A DNA stretch of 49,791 nucleotides from a virus. Positions 6,254 to 49,791 of this stretch are shown one piece after another. The notes under the pieces are model-generated. The model saw only the letters and a list, made by a program, of their open reading frames with translations. It was not told the DNA's origin and ran no database searches. The translations under genes were made by a program, and so were the position numbers. The DNA lies in IMG/VR virus record IMGVR_UViG_3300050821_015283, positions 1 to 49,791 of that record; one strand, given 5' to 3'. Every line of letters starts with the position of its first letter. The first letter of the stretch is position 1.

Positions 6254-6544
6254 TCATCTATTTTTCCGAATAAAATATTCCAACCAATCATCGTAGCTCC
6301 CAAATCCAAAACAAGTTTCTAATTCATGTGAGCATGAAAATGTTGGAAAATAGTCGTTTCCCTTTCCGTTTCCGTACCCATATCCGTCTTCTTCATATCT
6401 TCCGTTACTGTAACCATAACAGGTTCCATATCCGAGTTTGTAATCATTGCCATTTATTTCATCAGCAATAGCTAAATAACTCCTAGCATAGTCACTATAT
6501 TCGTCACCACCTGTAGATGTAACTACATTGTCCATCCTCATCAT
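6254..6544 (-). CDS. Gly-x-Gly repeat protein, MDNV start (degenerate)
   Basis: The frame from 6544 (ATGA overlap with the upstream stop) reads MMRMDNVVTSTGGDEYSDY; MDNV begins at 6535. The Gly-rich core is short (YKLGYGTCYGYSNGRYEEDG, then YGYGNGKG), followed by a non-repetitive Cys/Phe tail (FSCSHELETCFGFGSYDDWL). It belongs to the same family as 6541-6774 and 6762-7097 but is the most diverged. Function unknown. A longer in-frame extension upstream is probably not translated. Confidence 0.6.
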   Translation of the reverse strand: MMRMDNVVTSTGGDEYSDYARSYLAIADEINGNDYKLGYGTCYGYSNGRYEEDGYGYGNGKGNDYFPTFSCSHELETCFGFGSYDDWLEYFIRKNR

Positions 6545-6774
6545 TTTCCGTATCCATGCCCGTATCCGTAACAAAAACTTCCAGCTAATATAAAAAAATT
6601 GCGAGTGTCTCCCCATCCTTCTTGATGTAATAAGCAATCACCGATTCCATATCCGGCTTTGTCTTTGTATCCACAACCAGAACCATATCCTTTTTCACGT
6701 AGACGTCCGTAACCAGGAGCATTTCCATTTTCACCATAAACATAAGAATCATATATCGAAATCACATTGTCCAT
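6541..6774 (-). CDS. Gly-x-Gly repeat protein, MDNVIS start
   Basis: 77 residues, MDNVISIYDSYVYGENGN and then GYG/GCGY motifs with interspersed non-repeat sequence, ending CYGYGHGYGK. The ATG is inside the previous gene's last codons: ATGGACAATGTGA gives this gene's MDNV and the neighbour's WTM-stop. A DNA-level cassette of the same type joins 6762-7097 to the DUF6948 gene. Cys residues may form disulfides or bind metal. No known family. Confidence 0.65.
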   Translation of the reverse strand: MDNVISIYDSYVYGENGNAPGYGRLREKGYGSGCGYKDKAGYGIGDCLLHQEGWGDTRNFFILAGSFCYGYGHGYGK

Positions 6775-7097
6775 AATTTACCGAAACCTTCTGCGTCTCC
6801 AAAACCGTTCTCATAACCAGCCCCATCACCGCTGCCGCCCCCCTTTGAGTATTCAACATCGTAACTTTCTCCATAGCCGTCTCCATCACCAGCATTGGAA
6901 AAAATCAAGTCTCCTCCATGACCATATCCATCAAATTCGATACCACATCCGGAGCTGAAACTATATTCGGATTGTAAACCATACTTGAATTTGTCTCCGC
7001 AACCAGAGCTATATCCGTACCCTGAACCATCTCCGCAACCGAAATCGATTTCATAATAAAATCCATTGGGCCGATAAGTGGAGATTACATTGTCCAT
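6762..7097 (-). CDS. Gly-x-Gly repeat protein, MDNVIS start
   Basis: 111 residues. MDNVISTYRPNGFYYEIDFG is followed by about 80 residues of G-x-G repeats with Y, D, S, C at the x positions (CGDGSGYGYSSGCGDKF). Probably disordered or a glycine-turn beta structure. Its start codons (ATGGACAATGTAA) supply the stop of the upstream DUF6948 gene. Family members also occur at 17925-18414 (plus) and 48206-49583 (minus). Confidence 0.65.
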   Translation of the reverse strand: MDNVISTYRPNGFYYEIDFGCGDGSGYGYSSGCGDKFKYGLQSEYSFSSGCGIEFDGYGHGGDLIFSNAGDGDGYGESYDVEYSKGGGSGDGAGYENGFGDAEGFGKLWTM

Positions 7098-7405
7098 GGC
7101 ACTATGCTGTCCAAAACTAATTTGGCCTGTTCAGTAATCGGAATGATCTCGATGACTTCCATAATTATTGCTTTATCAATAGCACATGAGAACTTACATT
7201 CTTCTGGAAGGGTAACACCTATTTGTGCAATTTCTGAGATAGACAAAGCTCCGGCCCACCGGCATAACCTGCGAGAAGAAGAAACTTCAACACTGATACC
7301 ATTTCCATTCAATTCACTTTCAATTTTTTCTAAAATACAAGCGTGTACACCAGCATTTTTTGTCCTAATAATGACATATTTACCAACATAATCTTGTCCA
7401 ATCAT
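7085..7405 (-). CDS. DUF6948-type conserved phage protein
   Basis: The start at 7405 has AAAGGA at good distance; an upstream in-frame ATG at 7438 overlaps the stop of a Gly-repeat fragment and is the alternative. Residues VGKYVIIRTKNAGVHACILE, SSSRRLCRWAGALSISEIAQ, TLPEECKFS and MEVIEIIPITEQAKLVLDSI follow the pattern I associate with DUF6948, a small beta-rich phage protein of unknown function. First complete gene of the leftward early operon. Confidence 0.75.
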   Translation of the reverse strand: MIGQDYVGKYVIIRTKNAGVHACILEKIESELNGNGISVEVSSSRRLCRWAGALSISEIAQIGVTLPEECKFSCAIDKAIIMEVIEIIPITEQAKLVLDSIVPWTM

Positions 7406-7434
7406 TTTGAATTCCTTTAATTTTAAATAAGATT

Positions 7435-7560
7435 TCATCTTACGATAAAAGTTTCAGATACAGAACCAGGTCCGAATAATTCACTTCCATCTCCCTCCCC
7501 ATAGCCGCACTTATTATCGTAAGACGAATTCTTTATATCATATAATATTTTTAAAACAAA
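7435..7560 (-). pseudogene. Fragment of a Gly-x-Gly repeat gene
   Basis: The frame closed by TGA at 7435-7437 encodes SSYDNKCGYGEGDGSELFGP and then GSVSETFIVR, clearly the Gly-x-Gly family, but it holds no ATG, GTG or TTG start back to a TAA at 7561-7563. Its TGA overlaps the ATG at 7438. It appears to be a truncated relic of a repeat gene that once headed the operon. Confidence 0.5.
7439..7523. repeat. Inverted repeat in the divergent early region
   Basis: CTTACGATAA at 7439-7448 and TTATCGTAAG at 7514-7523 are perfect 10-base inverted copies flanking the Gly-repeat fragment. They may be a regulator-binding pair, the scar of an insertion, or a stem in the leader transcript. Confidence 0.4.
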
Positions 7561-7693: not shown

Positions 7694-8653
7694 ATGAGTA
7701 AACTATCCAAAGGACGCCGTCAACAAAAAAAAACAATAAATAAAAAAATCATATTTGATTCAGAGATAGCTATAAAATACGGAGTTGAAGCTGCCATTAT
7801 CATTCAGCATTTTCAATACTCTATTGGTCATCATAAGAAAAACGGTACCCATTTCCATGATGGGAGATATTGGACATATGATTCTATCAAAAATCTGAGA
7901 AGAATTTATCCTTTTTGGACCAGGAAGATCATCTGGAAAATCATAAAACAATTAGAAGATAAAAAAGTTATCCTATCAGGAAATCACAACAAGAATAAGT
8001 CAGATCGTACAAAATGGTTCTCATTTAAGGATGAAGATAAATTCTTAAAACCCTTCGAAAGTGCCGATCTCGAGCAACCTGTGGATAACTGTGCAAATTA
8101 TGTGGATAACTCTGTTAATAACCCCTGTATAAATAACTTACCAAAATGCAAAAATAAAACACAAGGAAATGAGCCATATATTTTAAAAATATCCTATGAG
8201 ATCCGCAGTTTTGGTCATTTTCCCAAATGGGAAAATGGGATGTTAAAAAATAACTCTAGGGAAACAGCCATTTATTTCGAAAAAATACCCCAAGATCCGC
8301 AGTTTTGGTCATTTTCCCATTTGGGAAAATGTATTTCTTCTATATATTCCTATGGAAGAAATTCTTCCATGGATGAAAGCAAACAGCCCAACAATGGAAG
8401 AAGTTTAAAAAAAGGTTTTGGAAGAAAAAATACAAGCAGACCAGTGTTCGCAACTAAGATCACAGCAGATTATGCCATGCATAAGACGCTTAGAAATAAG
8501 CTGCACAAGCTTGGCTTCTCAGATCATGAGATCGATCTGGAGACTCAAAACATGATCAAATACCATGCGCAGAACCCTCAAATCGTCTACAATGAACACA
8601 AGTGCATTCTGGGTTGGTTTAAAAACTACATGACTAGGAAGAGACTGAGGTAG
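7694..8653 (+). CDS. Replication initiator / replisome organiser, winged-helix type
   Basis: 319 residues from the ATG at 7694; an upstream in-frame TTG at 7628 has no ribosome site. The N-terminal 120 residues follow a winged-helix pattern seen in phage replication proteins (FDSEIAIKYGVEAAIIIQHF, GTHFHDGRYWTYDSI, IYPFWTRKIIWKIIKQLEDK). The middle is low-complexity and contains two long palindromic DNA repeats. The C-terminal 60 residues (HKLGFSDHEIDLETQNMIKY, ILGWFKNYM) are basic and helical and may contact the host helicase or loader. Repeats inside the initiator gene recall the lambda O/ori arrangement. Confidence 0.7.
   Translation: MSKLSKGRRQQKKTINKKIIFDSEIAIKYGVEAAIIIQHFQYSIGHHKKNGTHFHDGRYWTYDSIKNLRRIYPFWTRKIIWKIIKQLEDKKVILSGNHNKNKSDRTKWFSFKDEDKFLKPFESADLEQPVDNCANYVDNSVNNPCINNLPKCKNKTQGNEPYILKISYEIRSFGHFPKWENGMLKNNSRETAIYFEKIPQDPQFWSFSHLGKCISSIYSYGRNSSMDESKQPNNGRSLKKGFGRKNTSRPVFATKITADYAMHKTLRNKLHKLGFSDHEIDLETQNMIKYHAQNPQIVYNEHKCILGWFKNYMTRKRLR
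8200..8237 (+). repeat. Origin-type repeat 1 (inside initiator gene)
   Basis: A 38-base unit: GATCCGCAG, then TTTTGGT, then an inverted repeat with arms CATTTTCCCA and TGGGAAAATG around AA. Identical to repeat 2 except for the two central bases, although the codons are under no visible protein constraint to match. Confidence 0.8.
8294..8331 (+). repeat. Origin-type repeat 2 (inside initiator gene)
   Basis: A 38-base unit matching repeat 1 at 36 positions, with centre TT instead of AA in the palindrome. It is offset 94 bases from repeat 1, and 94 is not a multiple of three. The two copies are therefore read in different frames (IRSFGHFPKWENG versus PQFWSFSHLGKC), so conservation acts on DNA and not protein. 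Confidence 0.8.
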
Positions 8654-8822
8654 ATTAAAATCGATTATATGCCACTTTTTTTCAGTTTCTAGACCACTCT
8701 AGATAATTTCTGGTACCATGACTACCAAAAACCATCAAAAGGTCTGTAGGGTACCTTAAAATTAATATTTGGATAAATCGACTCTAAAATCTTATCTATC
8801 AAGAATGAATATTGTGCGTGTC

Positions 8823-8848
8823 CATTTGGGCAAATGTTCAAAACTCCG
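8823..8848 (-). repeat. Origin-type repeat 3 (inverted, noncoding)
   Basis: On the minus strand this reads CGGAGTTTTG, AA, CATTTGCCCAAATG, matching the core of repeat 1 (CGCAGTTTTG, GT, CATTTTCCCAAATG) with a tight palindrome CATTTGCCCAAATG. It lies downstream of the initiator gene in the opposite orientation. Confidence 0.65.
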
Positions 8849-8926
8849 TCTTACGGGGTATTTATTTAAAAAAATTGGCTCATTACCTGTGATTTTGTTT
8901 TTGCAACAACTATCTGATTATTATCA

Positions 8927-9000
8927 TGGTTGGGGGACCTGGACTCGAACCAGAATTGCCCGGTCCAAAGCCGGAAGTTCTGCCATTAAACTATCCCCCA
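8927..9000 (-). tRNA. tRNA-Gln (anticodon TTG), CCA encoded
   Basis: On the minus strand the acceptor TGGGGGA (9000-8994) pairs with TCCCCCA. The anticodon stem CCGG/CCGG encloses the loop CTTTGGA, giving anticodon TTG. The T arm contains GGTTCGAGTCC, the discriminator is A, and CCA is encoded at 8929-8927. All arms look sound, so it should be functional. It probably supplements host glutamine decoding; several virion proteins here are Gln-rich. It lies between origin-type repeats 3 and 4. Confidence 0.95.
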
Positions 9001-9069
9001 ATTTCCTAGTACTTTCCCTATAAGATTTTAACAGAATGGAAAGAAATTGTATTGAATAAATTGAATGCT

Positions 9070-9099
9070 CAAATGGGCAAATGGAGATTTCTGCGGATC
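9070..9099 (-). repeat. Origin-type repeat 4 (inverted, noncoding)
   Basis: On the minus strand this reads GATCCGCAG, AAATCTC, CATTTGCCCATTTG: the same nine-base head as repeats 1 and 2 followed at the same distance by the CATTT-CCCA half palindrome. It marks the far side of the candidate origin region. Confidence 0.65.
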
Positions 9100-9237
9100 A
9101 CAAGGGATTTTTTGGAAAAAAATGGCTAAAAACCTGGGATTTATTTTTCACATTTTTTTATCAGAGTGTTTTAATTCAAGGAAACAATTTCGTATATACA
9201 TTATTTCTTCCTGGAAAGATTTTTTTGAAAAAAGTAG

Positions 9238-12532: not shown

Positions 12533-12578
12533 TTGACACAACGCTATCAAACATATTAACTATTGTCAATAACAGATA
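12533..12578 (+). promoter_or_regulatory. Divergent control region of the terminase operon
   Basis: Between the minus gene start (12412) and the terminase small subunit (12588) lies ATTGACA (12533-12539), facing a TGTCAAT copy about 35 bases downstream, which forms an inverted repeat. The left arm includes a consensus TTGACA; a 17-base spacer leads to TTAACT, a weak -10. The arrangement looks like an operator-flanked promoter for the rightward operon. Confidence 0.45.
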
Positions 12579-17924: not shown

Positions 17925-18185
17925 ATGGTTTTTCTGACACGGAAACAAATTTCTCTATATATCAAATATCAGAAGAATAAATACTTAAGTTACGGAATCG
18001 GATCTGGAGAAGGAGCAGAGATCAGTGCCGGATCCGGGGACAATTATGGTTGTGGTTACGGAGATGGGTTGGGTGATGGCCGTGGAAATGGAGAGGGATA
18101 TGGTGAAGGTATTGGTTACGGAGACGGAAATGGAAATGGAGAAGGATATGGATGCGGAATAAATAGCCTTATACATGAAAATTAA
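17925..18185 (+). CDS. Gly-x-Gly repeat protein (late operon copy 1)
   Basis: 86 residues. The N-terminus MVFLTRKQISLYIKYQKNK is basic. The rest is an almost perfect Gly-x-Gly run (YGDGLGDGRGNGEGYGEG, YGDGNGNGEGYGCG), with Asp, Asn, Glu and Tyr between the glycines, ending INSLIHEN. DNA is purine-rich GGA-type 6-base repeats, prone to slippage. It overlaps the next gene by 11 bases. Confidence 0.65.
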   Translation: MVFLTRKQISLYIKYQKNKYLSYGIGSGEGAEISAGSGDNYGCGYGDGLGDGRGNGEGYGEGIGYGDGNGNGEGYGCGINSLIHEN

Positions 18186-18414
18186 TAAACACATGCACTC
18201 ATTTCGAATTAAATTTGACGATGCAATCTCACTTTCATTTGATGGGATTACTTTCGGTTTTGGTGATGGATACGGAGACGGCCATGGAAACGGTTTAGGA
18301 TATGGGAGTGGAGATAGTCGTCGATTCAGTTCCGATCCAAACGGTTACAAATACAATTACGAATTTTCAGACTTTAATGGCTATGGGAACCCGGATATTT
18401 TACATGAGTGTTGA
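18175..18414 (+). CDS. Gly-x-Gly repeat protein (late operon copy 2)
   Basis: 79 residues: MKINKHMHSFRIKFDDAISL, then SFDGITFGFGDGYGDGHGNG, LGYGSGD, and a Tyr/Asn-rich non-repeat tail (YKYNYEFSDFNGYGN). The start overlaps the previous gene's end; a second ATG at 18193 is possible. Confidence 0.6.
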   Translation: MKINKHMHSFRIKFDDAISLSFDGITFGFGDGYGDGHGNGLGYGSGDSRRFSSDPNGYKYNYEFSDFNGYGNPDILHEC

Positions 18415-23461: not shown

Positions 23462-24604
23462 CTATTCTATAACTAACTTTTGTGACCCATGTGGATTCTG
23501 TTCTCTTTTAGCTTCTGCATAGCGCCTAACTGCTTCATCGCCTGTTGCATATTTTCCATTGGGTAATTTGATTTGAAGATTGCGAGCTATCTTATATTCA
23601 TCTTCCGATAAGGACATAGCTCTGCGTGTATTGTTTGGATTTCTTGACATATACTGATCCGCCATGGAAGAACCATTTCTGCTTACAGGAGCCACATTAT
23701 AAGATTGAGATTGCCGTGGTTGGGGCTCATTATCATATTCTTGTCTTGATCTTGGTTCATTTCCTTGAACCGCATATCTTTCTGACATCAAATTATCGAT
23801 AGATTCAAAATAAGCTTGAGTACCAATATATTCAGATTTACCATTATATCTTAACATCTCATCAAATTCGTCGGCTAACTGATTAGCCTCTTGCCTCAAT
23901 CTTGGAGAAAAATTACGAGAGTCTGGATCTGCCCATGAATTTCTCTCAAGCCAACCATCATAAGCTTCATTGGATTCTTCATAATTATTATCGGGAGAAT
24001 CAAGGTTATTCCCAAATGTAGGTTGAGGATAAATCGCTTGTTGATCATAGTTATTGATGGGTTCGTTTTGGCGAGGCTGATTCTGTAATTGTGATTTATA
24101 GAGACCATAAGTAGATTGGTCAGCAGTAACCTTTGCTAATTCTTGTGAAAGAGAAATTTCTTTTTCAATATCTCCTTCTTCCTTAGCAACTTTAAGCTCA
24201 TTAATAATAGCCTTTTGTCTAGTTTGTAGATTATTTTCATAATAAGCATTTTTGTATTGCTCATTTTGCTCTAATAAGGATCTCTGTTCGGCTAACCTTT
24301 GTTCTTGCTCTTGAACTTTGGCTAACAATTCTTTGTTTTGTGCTTCTCTTACATTTCGCTCGAAAGTAACTTGATCTATTCGCTTCTTTAGACCATCTAC
24401 TGTTTTACGACTTGTTTTTTTGTGTTTTGGCTGTTCTTGGCCATCTTGTTGATGGAGTTCTTGTAAGGGATCACCTTGATCTGTATTATCTGTCATGTCT
24501 GAGCTGATTGTAGGGGAATCAGTTATACCCCCATCATCTGTCGTAAATCCTGCATCAACTATTGTTTGCTTATACTGTTCGACCTTATCTTTGAATTCAC
24601 TCAT
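23462..24604 (-). CDS. Scaffolding protein, putative
   Basis: 380 residues. Acidic N-terminus; residues 60-140 are a strong Gln/Glu coiled coil (QNKELLAKVQEQEQRLAEQR, SLLEQNEQYKNAYYENN); then a disordered Asn/Gln/Arg-rich middle and a C-terminal helix (LQIKLPNGKYATGDEAVRRY). Composition and placement between portal and GroES-like genes fit a capsid scaffold. The ATG overlaps the co-chaperonin stop by four bases. Confidence 0.65.
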   Translation of the reverse strand: MSEFKDKVEQYKQTIVDAGFTTDDGGITDSPTISSDMTDNTDQGDPLQELHQQDGQEQPKHKKTSRKTVDGLKKRIDQVTFERNVREAQNKELLAKVQEQEQRLAEQRSLLEQNEQYKNAYYENNLQTRQKAIINELKVAKEEGDIEKEISLSQELAKVTADQSTYGLYKSQLQNQPRQNEPINNYDQQAIYPQPTFGNNLDSPDNNYEESNEAYDGWLERNSWADPDSRNFSPRLRQEANQLADEFDEMLRYNGKSEYIGTQAYFESIDNLMSERYAVQGNEPRSRQEYDNEPQPRQSQSYNVAPVSRNGSSMADQYMSRNPNNTRRAMSLSEDEYKIARNLQIKLPNGKYATGDEAVRRYAEAKREQNPHGSQKLVIE

Positions 24605-25050
24605 TTATACCGCTCTAATTCTGGAATGATCTTACTTAAGTCCGCTTCTGATAATGTTGCATAAATGCGTTCGTCGTTTATGAAATAACATAAATGATTA
24701 TTTATGTTTACCTCATCTCTTTCATAGGAAGAATAATAAACCCAATCGCCAACTTTACAGTAGGGAGCACCACCGAATTTATCGAGGGGTTGGTAAGCTT
24801 GATTTCCCATTTTTAACACAAGACCTATATTATAGGCCCTTCTTTCCATGTTCCTCATAACTTCAGATAATATGAGACCACTTTTTGTTTTTTCTGGTAA
24901 TGTAATGGCTTTTAAAAGAACCCTATATCCGTGGACAATAAGGTCAACACCAATTTCTTGTTCAAGGAATGCTTTTTCTCCAACGGGAGTAAAAGGAGAA
25001 TCTTGAGAAGTAAGCTTGGGTGTAAAAGGGGTATTATGTAAATCAGACAT
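24601..25050 (-). CDS. GroES-like co-chaperonin
   Basis: 149 residues from the ATG at 25050; an upstream GTG (25083) is the alternative. VHGYRVLLKAITLPEKTKSG then LILS (40-62) is the Cpn10 first strand and mobile loop; VGDWVYYSSYERDEV, CYFINDERIYATLSEADLSK and II match the rest of Cpn10. An N-terminal extension of about 35 residues and an insertion near 85-97 (QPLDKFGGAPYCK) are phage additions. It probably teams with host GroEL to fold the capsid or portal, as T4 gp31 does. Confidence 0.8.
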   Translation of the reverse strand: MSDLHNTPFTPKLTSQDSPFTPVGEKAFLEQEIGVDLIVHGYRVLLKAITLPEKTKSGLILSEVMRNMERRAYNIGLVLKMGNQAYQPLDKFGGAPYCKVGDWVYYSSYERDEVNINNHLCYFINDERIYATLSEADLSKIIPELERYK

Positions 25051-25273
25051 CAGGAGTCGTCTCAATGACTGTATTGTTGCCACCTTGATTATAAAAATCG
25101 GTAATCACAGTATCTAATGAATTTGCGATACCGATTAATGTATCTCGAATACCACCTACTCGTTTTGCTTCAGCAAGTGTTTCGTAACTTGCAGAAAGTA
25201 GGTTTCCTTCGTATTTTTGTGCTTCTTTGATGAGAATTTCTTTAAGAAATGTGCTGAAAGATTTCGCGTCCAA
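25043..25273 (-). CDS. Small hypothetical protein, TTG start
   Basis: 76 residues with a TTG start supported by AGGAG eight bases upstream. MDAKSFSTFLKEILIKEAQK, then LSASYETLAEAKRVGGIRDT; a small helical protein. First gene of the minus head-assembly block; overlaps the co-chaperonin ATG by eight bases. Function unknown. Confidence 0.6.
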   Translation of the reverse strand: MDAKSFSTFLKEILIKEAQKYEGNLLSASYETLAEAKRVGGIRDTLIGIANSLDTVITDFYNQGGNNTVIETTPDV

Positions 25274-32783: not shown

Positions 32784-35700
32784 ATGGCAGACGCTCCAAA
32801 TACCTCAACATATACATTAGTAACCCCTGATACAGCAGATTTACCAAACTCTAGAACATTAACTGGCGGAACTGGAATTACACTCCAAGATAGCGGAGCT
32901 GGAAATGATCTGACTATTCAGCCACTTGGAAACATTCAAAGTTTATATAATTTTGATGAAAGTGGATTTATGATTTACAACTCCGAGAGCAACACTTTTT
33001 CTGGTGTTTCCTTTACTGGTGGAACAACTATCAACATTACAAATCCTGATGGAACGGGTGGTAATCCTATATTGGGAGTGATTTCAGACAGTTCAACTCA
33101 GAGAATAATAAGTCAAGTAGGTGGTGTTCCTATTTCTACAAGAAGTAATCTCAATTTTATTGAAGGGGCGAATATATCAATTTCTGTCGTTGATGATTTT
33201 GCCAATAATAGAGCAAATGTAACAATTACTGGTTCTGGAATTCCAGGAGAAGGAACTGTTACCAGCATTACAGCAGGAACAGGTCTATCAGGAGGTACAA
33301 TAACATCGGTTGGAACAATAGCTTTAGCAAATACGACTGTAGCTGCCGGTTCTTATACAAACTCAGATATTACTATAAACGCGCAAGGGCAAATTACAGC
33401 TGCTTCTAATGGTACGGCTGGGACTGTATCCAGTATTACTGCCGGAACAGGTCTGACGGGAGGTACGATAACATCGAGCGGAACAATAGCTTTAGGGAAT
33501 ACGGCTGTATCTCCTGGTTCTTACACAAATACAAATATCACAGTGAATGCACAAGGACAAATTACAGCTGCTTCTAATGGATCTAGTGATACTGGTACTG
33601 TCACGAGCATTACAGCAGGCACAAATTTGACAGGTGGGACAATTACCACAAGTGGGACAATAGCTTTATCGTCTACGCCATCAGGTTTAACATCTTTAGG
33701 TGTTGGTAATTTATCCTTATCTGGGAACGCTATAAGTTCAAGTACGAACACATTAAGTCTTGCTGCAACGAGTGGAGCAATTGAATTCAACACTAGCGGA
33801 TTTATTGATAACGTAACAAATCTGCCCGCATCTTTATCTCCAAAATTATATAATGCTCTTATTAGCGATAGCATAATTGTTGCTAATACTAATTCTGCAA
33901 ATACGACGATCAATATGCCTGCATCACCCAATACGGGGCAAACCTATAAAATAATTGATGGTTCAGGAAATGCAGTTCAATATCCTATTTTCATTAATGG
34001 AAATGGAAATCTTGTTAATGGAACTCCAAATACTTTAACTTATATTCCTCCTATAGCTGTCGATAATTTCCCTACTTATGTAGCCATAACCCCTGACGGC
34101 AATTATGCGTATGTGGCAAACAGTGAATCGACAACGGTAACCGTGATTCAGAATGCATCAACGAACACACCTACCTTCCTAACAACAATTACTGTCGATA
34201 ATAATCCTTCTTCTGTAGCAATAACGCCTAATGGTAAGTATGCCTATGTTACAAACAGTGGATCGACAACGGTAACGGTAATTCAGAATGTATCGACGAA
34301 CACGCCAACAGTCCTAACAACCCTCACCGTTGGTACTTATCCTTCTTATGTAGCTATCACGCCTGATGGCAATTATGCTTATGTTACAAACAATGGAGCG
34401 ACCACGGTAAGTGTGATTCAGAATGCGTCCACGAACACACCAACAGTCCTAACAACGATTTCCGCTGATACTAGTCCTTCAACTCTAGCCATAACTCCAG
34501 ATGGCAATTATGTCTATGTGCTGAATTCTGGAACGGATACGGTAACAGTGATTGAGAATGCATCGACGAACACACCGGACTTTTTAACAAATCTCACCGT
34601 TGGTACTGCTCCTGTTGGTATAGCCATTACTCCTGATGGCAATTATGCGTATGTTACAAACAATGGATCGAATACAGTAAGTGTGATTCAAAATGTATTG
34701 ACGGATACCCCTTCAGTCCTAACAACTCTCACCGTTGATGCTAATCCTGATAATATAGCTATCACGCCTGACGGAAATTACGCTTATGTTACAAACAATG
34801 GAGCGACCACGGTAAGTGTGATTCAGAATGCGTCTATGATCAATTCCATCGTCCTACCAACAGTCCTAACAACTCTCACCGTTGGTACAAATGATACAAA
34901 TCCTTATAATATAGCCATAAGCCAAGATGGCAATTATGCTTATGTTACAATAGCTCCAGTATCTACGGGAATAGGTTACGTATCTGTAATTCAGAATGTT
35001 TCTACAAATAATCCTACAGTCTTCACAACTATCTCCTTCAATGTTGAAAGTACACCTTTTTATATATCCCTCACCCCTGATGGCAATTATGCTTATGTTA
35101 CAGACACGCAACTAAATATAGTATCAATATTGCCTATTCCATATTTGTTACCAAATATTTTAGCAACTCTCACCGTTGGTACTAATCCTTATAGTATAGC
35201 TCTCACCCCAAATAGCAATTACGCCTATGTAGCTAACCAGCTATCTGGCAATGTATCTGTAATTCAGAATGCTTCCACGAGCAACCCCACTCTCCTCACA
35301 ACTCTCACCACTGGTACTAATCCTTTTGATATAGCCATAACCCCGAATGGTAATTACGCCTATGTTGCAAACCAGGGAACGACAACGGTAAGTGTGATTC
35401 AAAATGCTTCAACGAACACTCCTACAGTTCTTACACCCATAACTGTTGGTACTAATCCAGTTTATGTAGCTATCACTCCAGATGGCAATTATGCCTATGT
35501 AGCTAACTATGGATCTGGTAATATAAAGGTGATTCAGAATGCGTCCACGAACAACCCCACCGTCCTCACAACTCTCACCACTGGTACTAATCCTTTTGAT
35601 ATAGCCATAACCCCGAATGGTAATTACGCCTATGTTGCAAATTATGGATCTGGTAATGTAACGGTGATTCAAAATGCCTCGACGAATACTCCCACCTTCC

Positions 35701-36308
35701 TAACAACACTCACCGTTGATACGAATCCAGTTGATATAGCTATCACGCCCGATGGTAATTATGCGTATGTTACAAACAATGGATCAATAACGGTAACGGT
35801 AATTCAGAATGTATCGACGAACACGCCGACCGTCCTTACAACCCTTACCGTTGGTACTACCCCTTATGGTATAGCGATAACTCCTGATGGCAATTACGCT
35901 TATGTTGCTAACAAGGGAACGACTACGGTAAGTGTAATCCAGAATGCATCCTCGAACACACCAACAGTCTTAACAACTCTCACCGTTGGTACTTTTCCTT
36001 ATAGTATAGCTATATCTCCTGACGGCAATTATGCTTATGTATCGAACAACGGAACGACTACGGTAAGTATAATCCAGAATGCTTCAACGAACACGCCAAC
36101 AGTCCTTACAACATTCACCACTGGTACTAATCCTTTTGCTGTAGCGATAACGCCTGATGGCAATTACGCATATATAGCTAACAAGGGCTCTGGAAATGTA
36201 TCTGTGATTCAAAATGCGACAAATCCAAATAATTCTATATCAATAATGAAAGATTATGGATCTAAGTTTTTAACTTACTCTGGAACGCAATGGCTTTCCT
36301 ATGCGTAA
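32784..36308 (+). CDS. Tail fibre with YVTN beta-propeller repeats
   Basis: 1174 residues. N-terminus: attachment-like region. Residues 155-290: three copies of GTVTSITAGTGLSGGTITS-type fibre linkers. Residues about 420-1150: sixteen units of about 45 residues (VAITPDGNYAYVTNNGSTTV, SVIQNASTNTPTVLTTLTVG), the YVTN propeller repeat. C-terminus: LTYSGTQWLSYA. Units 7 and 8 are the most diverged, consistent with two tandem propellers. Likely receptor-binding protein. AGGAGA precedes the ATG. Confidence 0.8.
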   Translation: MADAPNTSTYTLVTPDTADLPNSRTLTGGTGITLQDSGAGNDLTIQPLGNIQSLYNFDESGFMIYNSESNTFSGVSFTGGTTINITNPDGTGGNPILGVISDSSTQRIISQVGGVPISTRSNLNFIEGANISISVVDDFANNRANVTITGSGIPGEGTVTSITAGTGLSGGTITSVGTIALANTTVAAGSYTNSDITINAQGQITAASNGTAGTVSSITAGTGLTGGTITSSGTIALGNTAVSPGSYTNTNITVNAQGQITAASNGSSDTGTVTSITAGTNLTGGTITTSGTIALSSTPSGLTSLGVGNLSLSGNAISSSTNTLSLAATSGAIEFNTSGFIDNVTNLPASLSPKLYNALISDSIIVANTNSANTTINMPASPNTGQTYKIIDGSGNAVQYPIFINGNGNLVNGTPNTLTYIPPIAVDNFPTYVAITPDGNYAYVANSESTTVTVIQNASTNTPTFLTTITVDNNPSSVAITPNGKYAYVTNSGSTTVTVIQNVSTNTPTVLTTLTVGTYPSYVAITPDGNYAYVTNNGATTVSVIQNASTNTPTVLTTISADTSPSTLAITPDGNYVYVLNSGTDTVTVIENASTNTPDFLTNLTVGTAPVGIAITPDGNYAYVTNNGSNTVSVIQNVLTDTPSVLTTLTVDANPDNIAITPDGNYAYVTNNGATTVSVIQNASMINSIVLPTVLTTLTVGTNDTNPYNIAISQDGNYAYVTIAPVSTGIGYVSVIQNVSTNNPTVFTTISFNVESTPFYISLTPDGNYAYVTDTQLNIVSILPIPYLLPNILATLTVGTNPYSIALTPNSNYAYVANQLSGNVSVIQNASTSNPTLLTTLTTGTNPFDIAITPNGNYAYVANQGTTTVSVIQNASTNTPTVLTPITVGTNPVYVAITPDGNYAYVANYGSGNIKVIQNASTNNPTVLTTLTTGTNPFDIAITPNGNYAYVANYGSGNVTVIQNASTNTPTFLTTLTVDTNPVDIAITPDGNYAYVTNNGSITVTVIQNVSTNTPTVLTTLTVGTTPYGIAITPDGNYAYVANKGTTTVSVIQNASSNTPTVLTTLTVGTFPYSIAISPDGNYAYVSNNGTTTVSIIQNASTNTPTVLTTFTTGTNPFAVAITPDGNYAYIANKGSGNVSVIQNATNPNNSISIMKDYGSKFLTYSGTQWLSYA
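34045..36235 (+). repeat. Sixteen tandem ~135-bp YVTN-coding repeats
   Basis: The DNA repeats the core for AITPDGNYAYV and VIQNASTNTPTVLTTLTVG every 130-150 bases. Several neighbouring units are almost identical (for example those starting near 35305 and 35575), so unit number can change by recombination, which would alter fibre length or specificity. Confidence 0.85.
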
Positions 36309-48205: not shown

Positions 48206-48496
48206 TTAAAGGATACTTTGAAACTTATTTTTTAAACTGTAACCGTAACCATTTCCTCCTTTTCCAAAATCGTTTCCTAAACCGGAACCATCTCCTGAAC
48301 CACAACCATAACCATCCCCGAATTTTAATCCCATGAAAGGATAGCCGTTTTCGTAACTATCTCCATAACCATATCCATCAGCGTACCCCTCTGAGGATCC
48401 GGTACCATCTCCAAATCTATTTATTGATACAGAACCATCTATATCCCCATAACCATATCCGGGACCGATCATCTCACCGAAATATAGAATTCCCAT
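48206..48496 (-). CDS. Gly-x-Gly repeat protein (early operon end copy 1)
   Basis: 96 residues: MGILYFGEMIGPGYGYGDID, SVSINRFGDGTGSSEGYADG, YGYGDSYENGYPF, FGDGYGCGSGDGSGLGNDFG and a YGYSLKNKF end. Last gene of the long minus operon; its stop lies four bases from the stop of the converging structural operon. Same family as 6254-7097 and 17925-18414, with a different N-terminus. Confidence 0.6.
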   Translation of the reverse strand: MGILYFGEMIGPGYGYGDIDGSVSINRFGDGTGSSEGYADGYGYGDSYENGYPFMGLKFGDGYGCGSGDGSGLGNDFGKGGNGYGYSLKNKFQSIL

Positions 48497-48507
48497 GGTT
48501 TTATTTC

Positions 48508-48717
48508 CTAACCTTGTCCAAATCCATTTGCATATCCAAAACCTGTTCCTATATCGTTACCACTGCCAATTCCAATTTCATCGTATGTGCTTCCGTAAAT
48601 ATGACCGATCCCATACAAATTTCCACATTTTCCATATCCACGTCCATCACCATAGCCCCATTCAAATTCATCTCCATAACCGTATTCATCACCAAAAGGT
48701 ATAACTGCATTGTCCAT
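48508..48717 (-). CDS. Gly-x-Gly repeat protein, MDNAV start
   Basis: 69 residues: MDNAVIPFGDEYGYGDEFEW, GYGDGRGYGKCGNLYGIGHI, IGIGSGNDIGTGFGYANGF. The MDN start matches the cluster at 6541-7097 (MDNVIS), tying the two loci together although they lie about 8 kb apart on the circle. Confidence 0.6.
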   Translation of the reverse strand: MDNAVIPFGDEYGYGDEFEWGYGDGRGYGKCGNLYGIGHIYGSTYDEIGIGSGNDIGTGFGYANGFGQG

Positions 48718-48725
48718 GATTTTAT

Positions 48726-49142
48726 TTATTCCTGTTCTTTTTTCAGTTTGATAAATAATTCTTTAGCAGATTTCGCCCATATTCTCCTGAAAGTGTTTGG
48801 TGTACCATTATAAGGAATATTGTGTTCATCCTGATCTGATATGTATACCTCCCTTACGATTTGATAAGTACTCTCAACTGTCCTTTTGTATTCAGCGAAA
48901 GGATTCCCATTTAATCTTATTTCTTTATTTATTACGTCGGTGTAAATAACAAGAAAATCACCATTTATTTGATCGAAGTAGGATATTGCATCGTCCCAAT
49001 GGGGACAACGATCTATCCTAAAAAATCTCCATTCTGGACATTTTTCATCTTTGTTAATTAAAATTTCATCTATAATTTCGTTTTTATCGAATTCTTTATC
49101 CAATAATAACTTTTTCTTGGTCATTTCTCCAAATAAGCTCAT
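48726..49142 (-). CDS. Hypothetical protein
   Basis: 138 residues starting MSLFGEMTKKKLLLDKEFDK. Alternating acidic helices and strands with two Cys (KDEKCPEWRFFRIDRCPHWD) in a C-x15-C arrangement, ending in a basic amphipathic helix (IWAKSAKELFIKLKKEQE). ATGA overlap with the upstream gene. No family recognised. Confidence 0.6.
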   Translation of the reverse strand: MSLFGEMTKKKLLLDKEFDKNEIIDEILINKDEKCPEWRFFRIDRCPHWDDAISYFDQINGDFLVIYTDVINKEIRLNGNPFAEYKRTVESTYQIVREVYISDQDEHNIPYNGTPNTFRRIWAKSAKELFIKLKKEQE

Positions 49143-49348
49143 GTAATTAATCTTTCTTTGGAAGGAAGAGCTCCTTCACTAATAAAATCAAAATTCATAT
49201 CGGCCAATAGAAAAACATCTTGTAATTCTTTGGTTAACGTCTGATCTTCTGTATATTCCTGTTTAATGTTTCCTACCTTGAAATTAAATTCATAGGCCAT
49301 TTTCAAGCATTCTAGTCTATATTTTATCTCTTCTTCATGATTTATCAT
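49139..49348 (-). CDS. Hypothetical helical protein
   Basis: 69 residues, MINHEEEIKYRLECLKMAYE; amphipathic helix followed by an acidic region. The start region GGAGGACAAATAAATG is identical to that of the junction-spanning gene (start 230). Overlaps the Gly-repeat gene's end by 14 bases. Function unknown. Confidence 0.6.
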   Translation of the reverse strand: MINHEEEIKYRLECLKMAYEFNFKVGNIKQEYTEDQTLTKELQDVFLLADMNFDFISEGALPSKERLIT

Positions 49349-49583
49349 TTATTTGTCCTCCCTCACCATATCCATCTTTATTTCCGGAAGTAGATGCGAG
49401 TCCGCCACCATCTCCTTTGCCGTTCCCAAAACCACCGTTCCCACGTCCCAAAAAGGTTCCTGATTTTAAAAATTCTCCGTAACCACACGCAGAGTTAATA
49501 CCGAAACCTTCTCCATTACCATATCCATCTTCATCACCTTTTCCAGATCCGAAACCTGTTCCTTCGAAATAGTCCATTGTCAT
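49335..49583 (-). CDS. Gly-x-Gly repeat protein, MTMDYFEG start
   Basis: 82 residues: MTMDYFEGTGFGSGKGDEDG, YGNGEGFGINSACGYG, FLGRGNGGFGNGKGDGGGLA. Lysine and phenylalanine replace many tyrosines, a different flavour of the family. ATGA overlap couples it to the junction-spanning gene. Confidence 0.6.
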   Translation of the reverse strand: MTMDYFEGTGFGSGKGDEDGYGNGEGFGINSACGYGEFLKSGTFLGRGNGGFGNGKGDGGGLASTSGNKDGYGEGGQINDKS

Positions 49584-49791
49584 TTATCATTTTCCACTAT
49601 CTCATATCGTACAACTACAGGTTCAATTATCTCCCGAATTTCAATAACATTAAATTTAGTATCTCTATTAAGATAAGAAACTACGTCTCTGTGAGGCAAA
49701 TTAACTTTAAACCAACGCTTGGATGATTTTAAGTGTTCTATCTGAGACATGGCCATCTCAATGGTTGGATATGTATTGATATTAATTGGCA
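49580..49791 (-). CDS. Hypothetical protein, C-terminal part (same gene as 1-230)
   Basis: The frame ends with TGA at 49580-49582 and is open to the right edge. The right-edge bases repeat the left end, so this is the 3' part of the gene starting at 230. The unique extension beyond the repeat encodes HRDVVSYLNRDTKFNVIEIR and EIIEPVVVRYEIVENDK, a beta-rich end. Function unknown. Confidence 0.8.
   Translation of the reverse strand, partial: PININTYPTIEMAMSQIEHLKSSKRWFKVNLPHRDVVSYLNRDTKFNVIEIREIIEPVVVRYEIVENDK
49695..49791. repeat. Right copy of 97-bp terminal direct repeat
   Basis: Exact copy of positions 1-97. See the left copy for what it implies; closing the circle removes it and leaves 49,694 unique bases. 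Confidence 0.97.

Follow-up and report, generated by a model that had tools for sequence, protein, structure and literature searches.

A candidate lambda-O-type replication origin inside the initiator gene of an uncultured phage

The phage genome and its initiator locus

The window analyzed here is the whole 49,791-nucleotide stretch of the IMG/VR virus record IMGVR_UViG_3300050821_015283. Positions 1 to 97 are identical to positions 49695 to 49791, and these 97-bp ends make it probable that the record covers an entire phage genome of ~49.7 kb, whether circular or circularly permuted. An earlier note on this DNA, made from the sequence alone, had pointed to the repeats at 8200 to 9099, which are present, and had missed the terminal repeat.

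The repeats lie in and beside a gene (Table 1) whose translation matches the PHROG families phrog_11233 (E value of 2.3e-26), phrog_428, and phrog_678, "replication initiation O-like." The encoded protein is laid out as an N-terminal winged-helix domain, a linker coded by the repeats, and a C-terminal domain. Judged from its sequence, the product of this gene is a winged-helix "O-like" phage replication initiator, and the gene falls within the O-like group of winged-helix phage initiators. A search of the initiator against solved structures gave no match, and the structure predicted without an alignment had a mean pLDDT of 36. Two weak viral contig loci from a scan with the initiator matched a different, amidase-like protein and were rejected, leaving no close relative. 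Other replication and recombination genes are found to the left of the initiator gene. Among the ORFs searched in the window, neither a helicase nor a helicase loader was identified.

The nearest match to the terminase in the plasmid collection was in plasmid-borne phages of "Candidatus Megaera polyxenophila" (45.7%), and the nearest match to the tRNA-Gln was in a "Candidatus Bealeia" plasmid (82.7%). The host is likely to be a Rickettsiales- or Holosporales-like alphaproteobacterium. Elsewhere, the genome encodes a Chaperonin-10 (GroES-like) domain protein (24601-25083, minus strand; Pfam E value of 1.5e-7) and a 1,174-amino-acid protein (32784-36308, plus strand) with a C-terminal lactonase-like beta-propeller made up of ~15 repeats of 135 nt; two proteins upstream of the latter carry a repeated K1-lyase C-terminal domain. 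Glycine-rich repetitive coding sequence (Gly-Asp/Tyr-Gly type) with the diverged direct repeats D4, D9, and D11 occurs at 6254-7500, 18048-18312, and 48206-49583.

Table 1. Features in and around the initiator gene (positions in the window)
Feature	Position	Strand	Description
SSB and ERF genes		opposite to initiator gene	left of initiator gene; replication/recombination
Holliday junction resolvase-like ORF		opposite to initiator gene	left of initiator gene; replication/recombination
Replication initiator gene	7694..8653	+	319 aa; PHROG matches and translation
Putative DnaA box 1 of 2	8080..8088	-	exact copy of TTATCCACA
Putative DnaA box 2 of 2	8101..8109	-	exact copy of TTATCCACA; start-to-start distance 21 bp, two helical turns
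Unit A	8146..8237	+	~92 nt; AT-rich upstream part; head GATCCGCAG at 8200-8208; palindrome CATTTTCCCAAATGGGAAAATG at 8216-8237
Unit B	8240..8331	+	same orientation as A, offset by 94 nt; head at 8294-8302; palindrome CATTTTCCCATTTGGGAAAATG at 8310-8331
Unit C	8822..8905	-	beyond the gene end, directly downstream of tRNA-Gln; variant palindrome TGCCCAAATGGACA at 8819-8832
tRNA-Gln (anticodon TTG)	8927..9000	-	between C and D; ARAGORN; Rfam RF00005, 58.9 bits
Unit D	9070..9153	-	upstream of tRNA-Gln; head GATCCGCAG at 9091-9099; palindrome variant TGCTCAAATGGGCA at 9066-9079

Repeat units and DnaA boxes

Repeat searches and alignment recovered four related units of ~85 to 92 nt each, confined to positions 8146 to 9153 of the genome. 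The two units within the gene share a near-identical core (8199-8237 and 8293-8331) that ends in a 22-nt palindrome, CATTTTCCCA(AA/TT)TGGGAAAATG. Both differences among the 39 nt fall in the palindrome center; the reverse complement of the A palindrome is exactly that of B, and only the polarity of the AA/TT center sets the two apart. The cores are read at codon offsets 1 and 2, giving EIRSFGHFPKWENG and QDPQFWSFSHLGK, and the earlier description of two near-identical in-gene units translated in different frames was therefore correct. The core is identical at 37 of 39 positions, compared with 34 of 52 in the upstream flank (Fisher P = 7e-4). Because it is kept to this degree while being read in two frames, there is good evidence that constraint acts on the DNA rather than on the protein. 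The proposal of selection on DNA gains from this conservation across frames but must share the ground with gene conversion, an alternative way in which the two cores could have been kept alike. These palindromes are the strongest in the gene, with 10-bp arms against a codon-shuffled 95% level of 8, and they occupy gene positions 523 to 544 and 617 to 638, so that repeated inverted-repeat sites follow the DNA-binding domain inside the initiator gene.

Outside the gene, the inverted matches are more diverged: 84 nt at 73% for unit C (I1) and 84 nt at 70% for unit D (I2). Local alignment scores were 73 for A against C and 48 for B against the downstream inverted region, while the maximum of 100 shuffles was 36; elsewhere in the window neither A nor B had a local match above 32. 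The palindromes of C and D are the variant TGCCCAAATGGGCA with one mismatch in each. Allowing two mismatches, this variant occurs at four places in the genome, which are the four units, and none of 100 shuffles reached four. The inverted units had been placed at 8823 and 9070, and these positions hold, but the units are longer than the 26 to 38 nt then described. The arrangement of head and palindrome at a fixed distance was likewise borne out as a 7-nt gap in all four units, though not as a uniform pair of motifs, since the C head is a weak version (AAGACGGAG), altered into a terminator-like hairpin at 8843-8859, and the C and D palindromes are mismatched.

The origin parts named in the earlier note were the repeats, which stand; perfect DnaA boxes had escaped it. 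Exact copies of TTATCCACA (or TTATNCACA) occur in the genome only at 8080-8088 and 8101-8109, within the initiator gene just upstream of the repeats. A close same-strand pair was obtained in 0 of 400 shufflings with the exact site and in 1 of 400 with a relaxed site. Perfect boxes at the origin are what a DnaA-assisted phage origin would have, and this pair, whose use by DnaA is putative, gives independent support to reading the region as an origin.

The 60-nt stretches upstream of the heads have an AT content of 68 to 75%, corresponding to the 69th to 92nd percentile of the genome. GC skew, a check that the earlier note had named, is lowest at 12,573, at a switch in gene direction, rather than at 8 to 9 kb, and does not pinpoint the site. 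The density of GATC is highest in the genome at 8190-8560 (7 in 371 nt), which is reminiscent of oriC, with an excess over chance that is not established; a search for GANTC found nothing.

Palindromes in related initiator genes

Related initiators were identified by tblastn in 129 phage records and in 7 of 385 alphaproteobacterial genomes, and ~20 relatives drawn from phages, alphaproteobacterial genomes, and lambda were compared. Many of them contain direct repeats and palindromes just after the part of the gene that codes for the winged helix. At this place Burkholderia phage BcepMigl has CATTCGCCGAATTCGGCGAATG, a Bacillus phage has two copies of TGGTCAAAATGACCA, a Vibrio phage has TCAGCCAAACGGCTGA, and alphaproteobacterial loci have TCGATCTACCCAAAATGGGTAGATCGA and TCGATCGGGCCAATTTGGCCCGATCGA. 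The center motif C-AAAN-G is kept among the relatives while the arms vary.

To count as a strict palindrome, a site needed perfect arms, 4 or longer, with C and G as the closing bases on either side of a center AAAN or AAANN; such sites were counted at 22 loci, including lambda and the window. The linker DNA, 7.7 kb in all, contained 17 of them, compared with 12 in the other 124 kb (2.2 versus 0.10 per kb, ~23-fold), and 2 of these 12 belonged to the same initiator genes, immediately beyond the boundary applied. Since the definition was framed after the relatives had been viewed, the enrichment is partly circular in motif but not in position, and it is the positional contrast that serves as evidence. 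Six sites in the window fit the definition, the two longest being those of A and B. A strict site is not present in every relative, and G002, a distant relative and the closest near-complete one found, had no such repeats; it has a perfect DnaA box inside its initiator gene. Two adjacent winged-helix initiator-like genes are present in G002 (L040, 4716-6213), the second of which ends in a stretch that we take to resemble the DnaA N-terminal domain. Carriage of palindromic initiator sites in the linker-coding part thus appears to be common across this winged-helix family, alphaproteobacterial genomes included, and phage origins may be findable from sequence by searching just downstream of the winged-helix coding region.

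Origin model, alternatives, and known systems

We consider it probable that the 8.1- to 9.2-kb region contains an in-gene origin of the lambda O type, bound by its own initiator. In this model, an initiator dimer would bind, via its N-terminal winged helix, to palindromes in that stretch of its own gene which encodes the linker. The strong sites would be the 22-nt palindromes of A and B, whose separation of ~9 helical turns puts them on one face of the DNA. Opening may be assisted by host DnaA bound to the two adjacent boxes and by the AT-rich stretches within the units, and would be followed by helicase recruitment. Units C and D would be weaker copies beyond the gene end that most likely arose by unit duplication and, if active at all, may act as auxiliary binding sites through local concentration, looping, or initiator titration. 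The candidate origin proposed in the earlier note is retained for A and B, on the basis of the PHROG family, the palindromes at the same place in relatives, and the DnaA boxes, and not for C and D, whose role is not established. Points against an origin here are that there are only two strong sites, 94 nt apart, that the GC skew minimum lies elsewhere, that the ORFs searched included no helicase or loader, and that G002, the closest near-complete relative, lacks such repeats.

It is possible, if improbable, that a small repeat of a dispersed or mobile type, like the palindromic elements of Rickettsia genes, gave rise to the units by landing by chance in and near the initiator gene and tRNA-Gln. 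Homology over ~85 nt is far beyond the needs of a protein-binding site, and copies are found both in the gene and around the tRNA, as such an element would predict. However, all four copies lie within 1 kb and none elsewhere in the genome, and at the equivalent position the relatives share the palindromic design but not the sequence. When 84,980 genomes, together with 2.9 million viral contigs, were scanned with a pattern of 19 specified bases, there were only six matches, all of them chance matches with unrelated flanks. Compared at the DNA level with phages and plasmids, the region gave matches to the tRNA-Gln but not to the repeats; the rest were weak (E value of 0.007 or worse), AT-rich, unannotated matches.

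Palindromes also suit dimeric repressors, and the location of D upstream of the tRNA gene and of C at its 3' end would fit operators through which the initiator or a repressor controls transcription of the initiator gene and tRNA without origin function. We regard this as very unlikely, as A and B lie 500 to 640 nt inside the gene, away from the promoter, and lambda has the sites that form its origin at this same position. Least credible is that the palindromes serve not as protein sites but as hairpins of RNA or DNA, acting as terminators or cruciforms. There are two terminator-like matches, at 8310-8331 and 8843-8859, and pairing between the palindromes of A and B is possible (I4), but Rfam gave nothing at meaningful scores besides the tRNA, and retention of the C-AAAN-G center in relatives with varying arms points instead to a bound site.

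The inverted pair around tRNA-Gln, called unusual in the earlier note, is real, with at most a putative part in the origin. No counterpart was present among the ~20 relatives examined, and the tRNA neighborhood in the Bealeia plasmid is without such repeats. With its head turned into a hairpin where the tRNA gene ends (3'), unit C seems to have been reused as a terminator. Because extra copies of the lambda origin in trans block lambda replication, probably via titration of O (PMC4488673), a titration role for C and D is conceivable. More elaborately, C and D could be functional initiator sites flanking an actively transcribed tRNA-Gln; the initiator would then bridge A/B to C/D over the end of the gene, and origin firing would be gated by transcription of the tRNA or by demand for it. 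We think this unlikely. These inverted outside copies are a testable oddity of an uncultured phage whose probable origin can now be placed.

Four inverted-repeat iterons midway along gene O are the binding sites at which the lambda O protein assembles the O-some (PMC7466680; PMC3985674; PMC4488673), and lambdoid iterons are each an inverted repeat (PMC7466680). The annotated lambda iterons are at gene positions 349 to 433, just after the binding domain. The parallel to iterons in gene O drawn in the earlier note is well founded, as lambda, relatives from very different phages, and relatives in alphaproteobacterial genomes all have palindromes of matching build at an equivalent point of the gene. 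The locus resembles the lambda origin in having an initiator with an N-terminal DNA-binding domain, inverted-repeat iterons in the gene just after that domain, and an A-tract in the middle of the site. It differs in having two strong 22-nt sites at 94 nt rather than four 18- to 19-nt sites ~20 to 24 nt apart, two further inverted units outside the gene, perfect DnaA boxes adjoining the sites, and no adjacent P-like gene seen. It does not show the approximately four closely spaced iterons of lambda (two units are in the gene and two diverged ones outside), although iteron number varies between phages and four or so is lambda's own count. With only two in-gene units at this spacing, it is best termed a variant that would work like the lambda origin, not a copy of it.

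In BcepMigl, the winged-helix part of gp22 is 35% identical, and the 22-nt palindrome and further copies come right after it. Its copies are 45 to 67 nt apart, its initiator gene is followed by a DnaC-like loader gene, and no outside copies were seen in its 1.8-kb flanks. The alphaproteobacterial loci L058 to L067, for which no outside copies were seen in the flanks read, encode longer proteins (368 to 518 amino acids) with 2 to 5 closely spaced sites; their likeness to the locus described here is that they are winged-helix relatives and have several linker palindromes, theirs with a CAAAAT/CAAATT center, such as ACCCAAAATGGGT. The candidate origin is of a design already known from lambda, to which the two extra worn copies around the tRNA are a modest variation.
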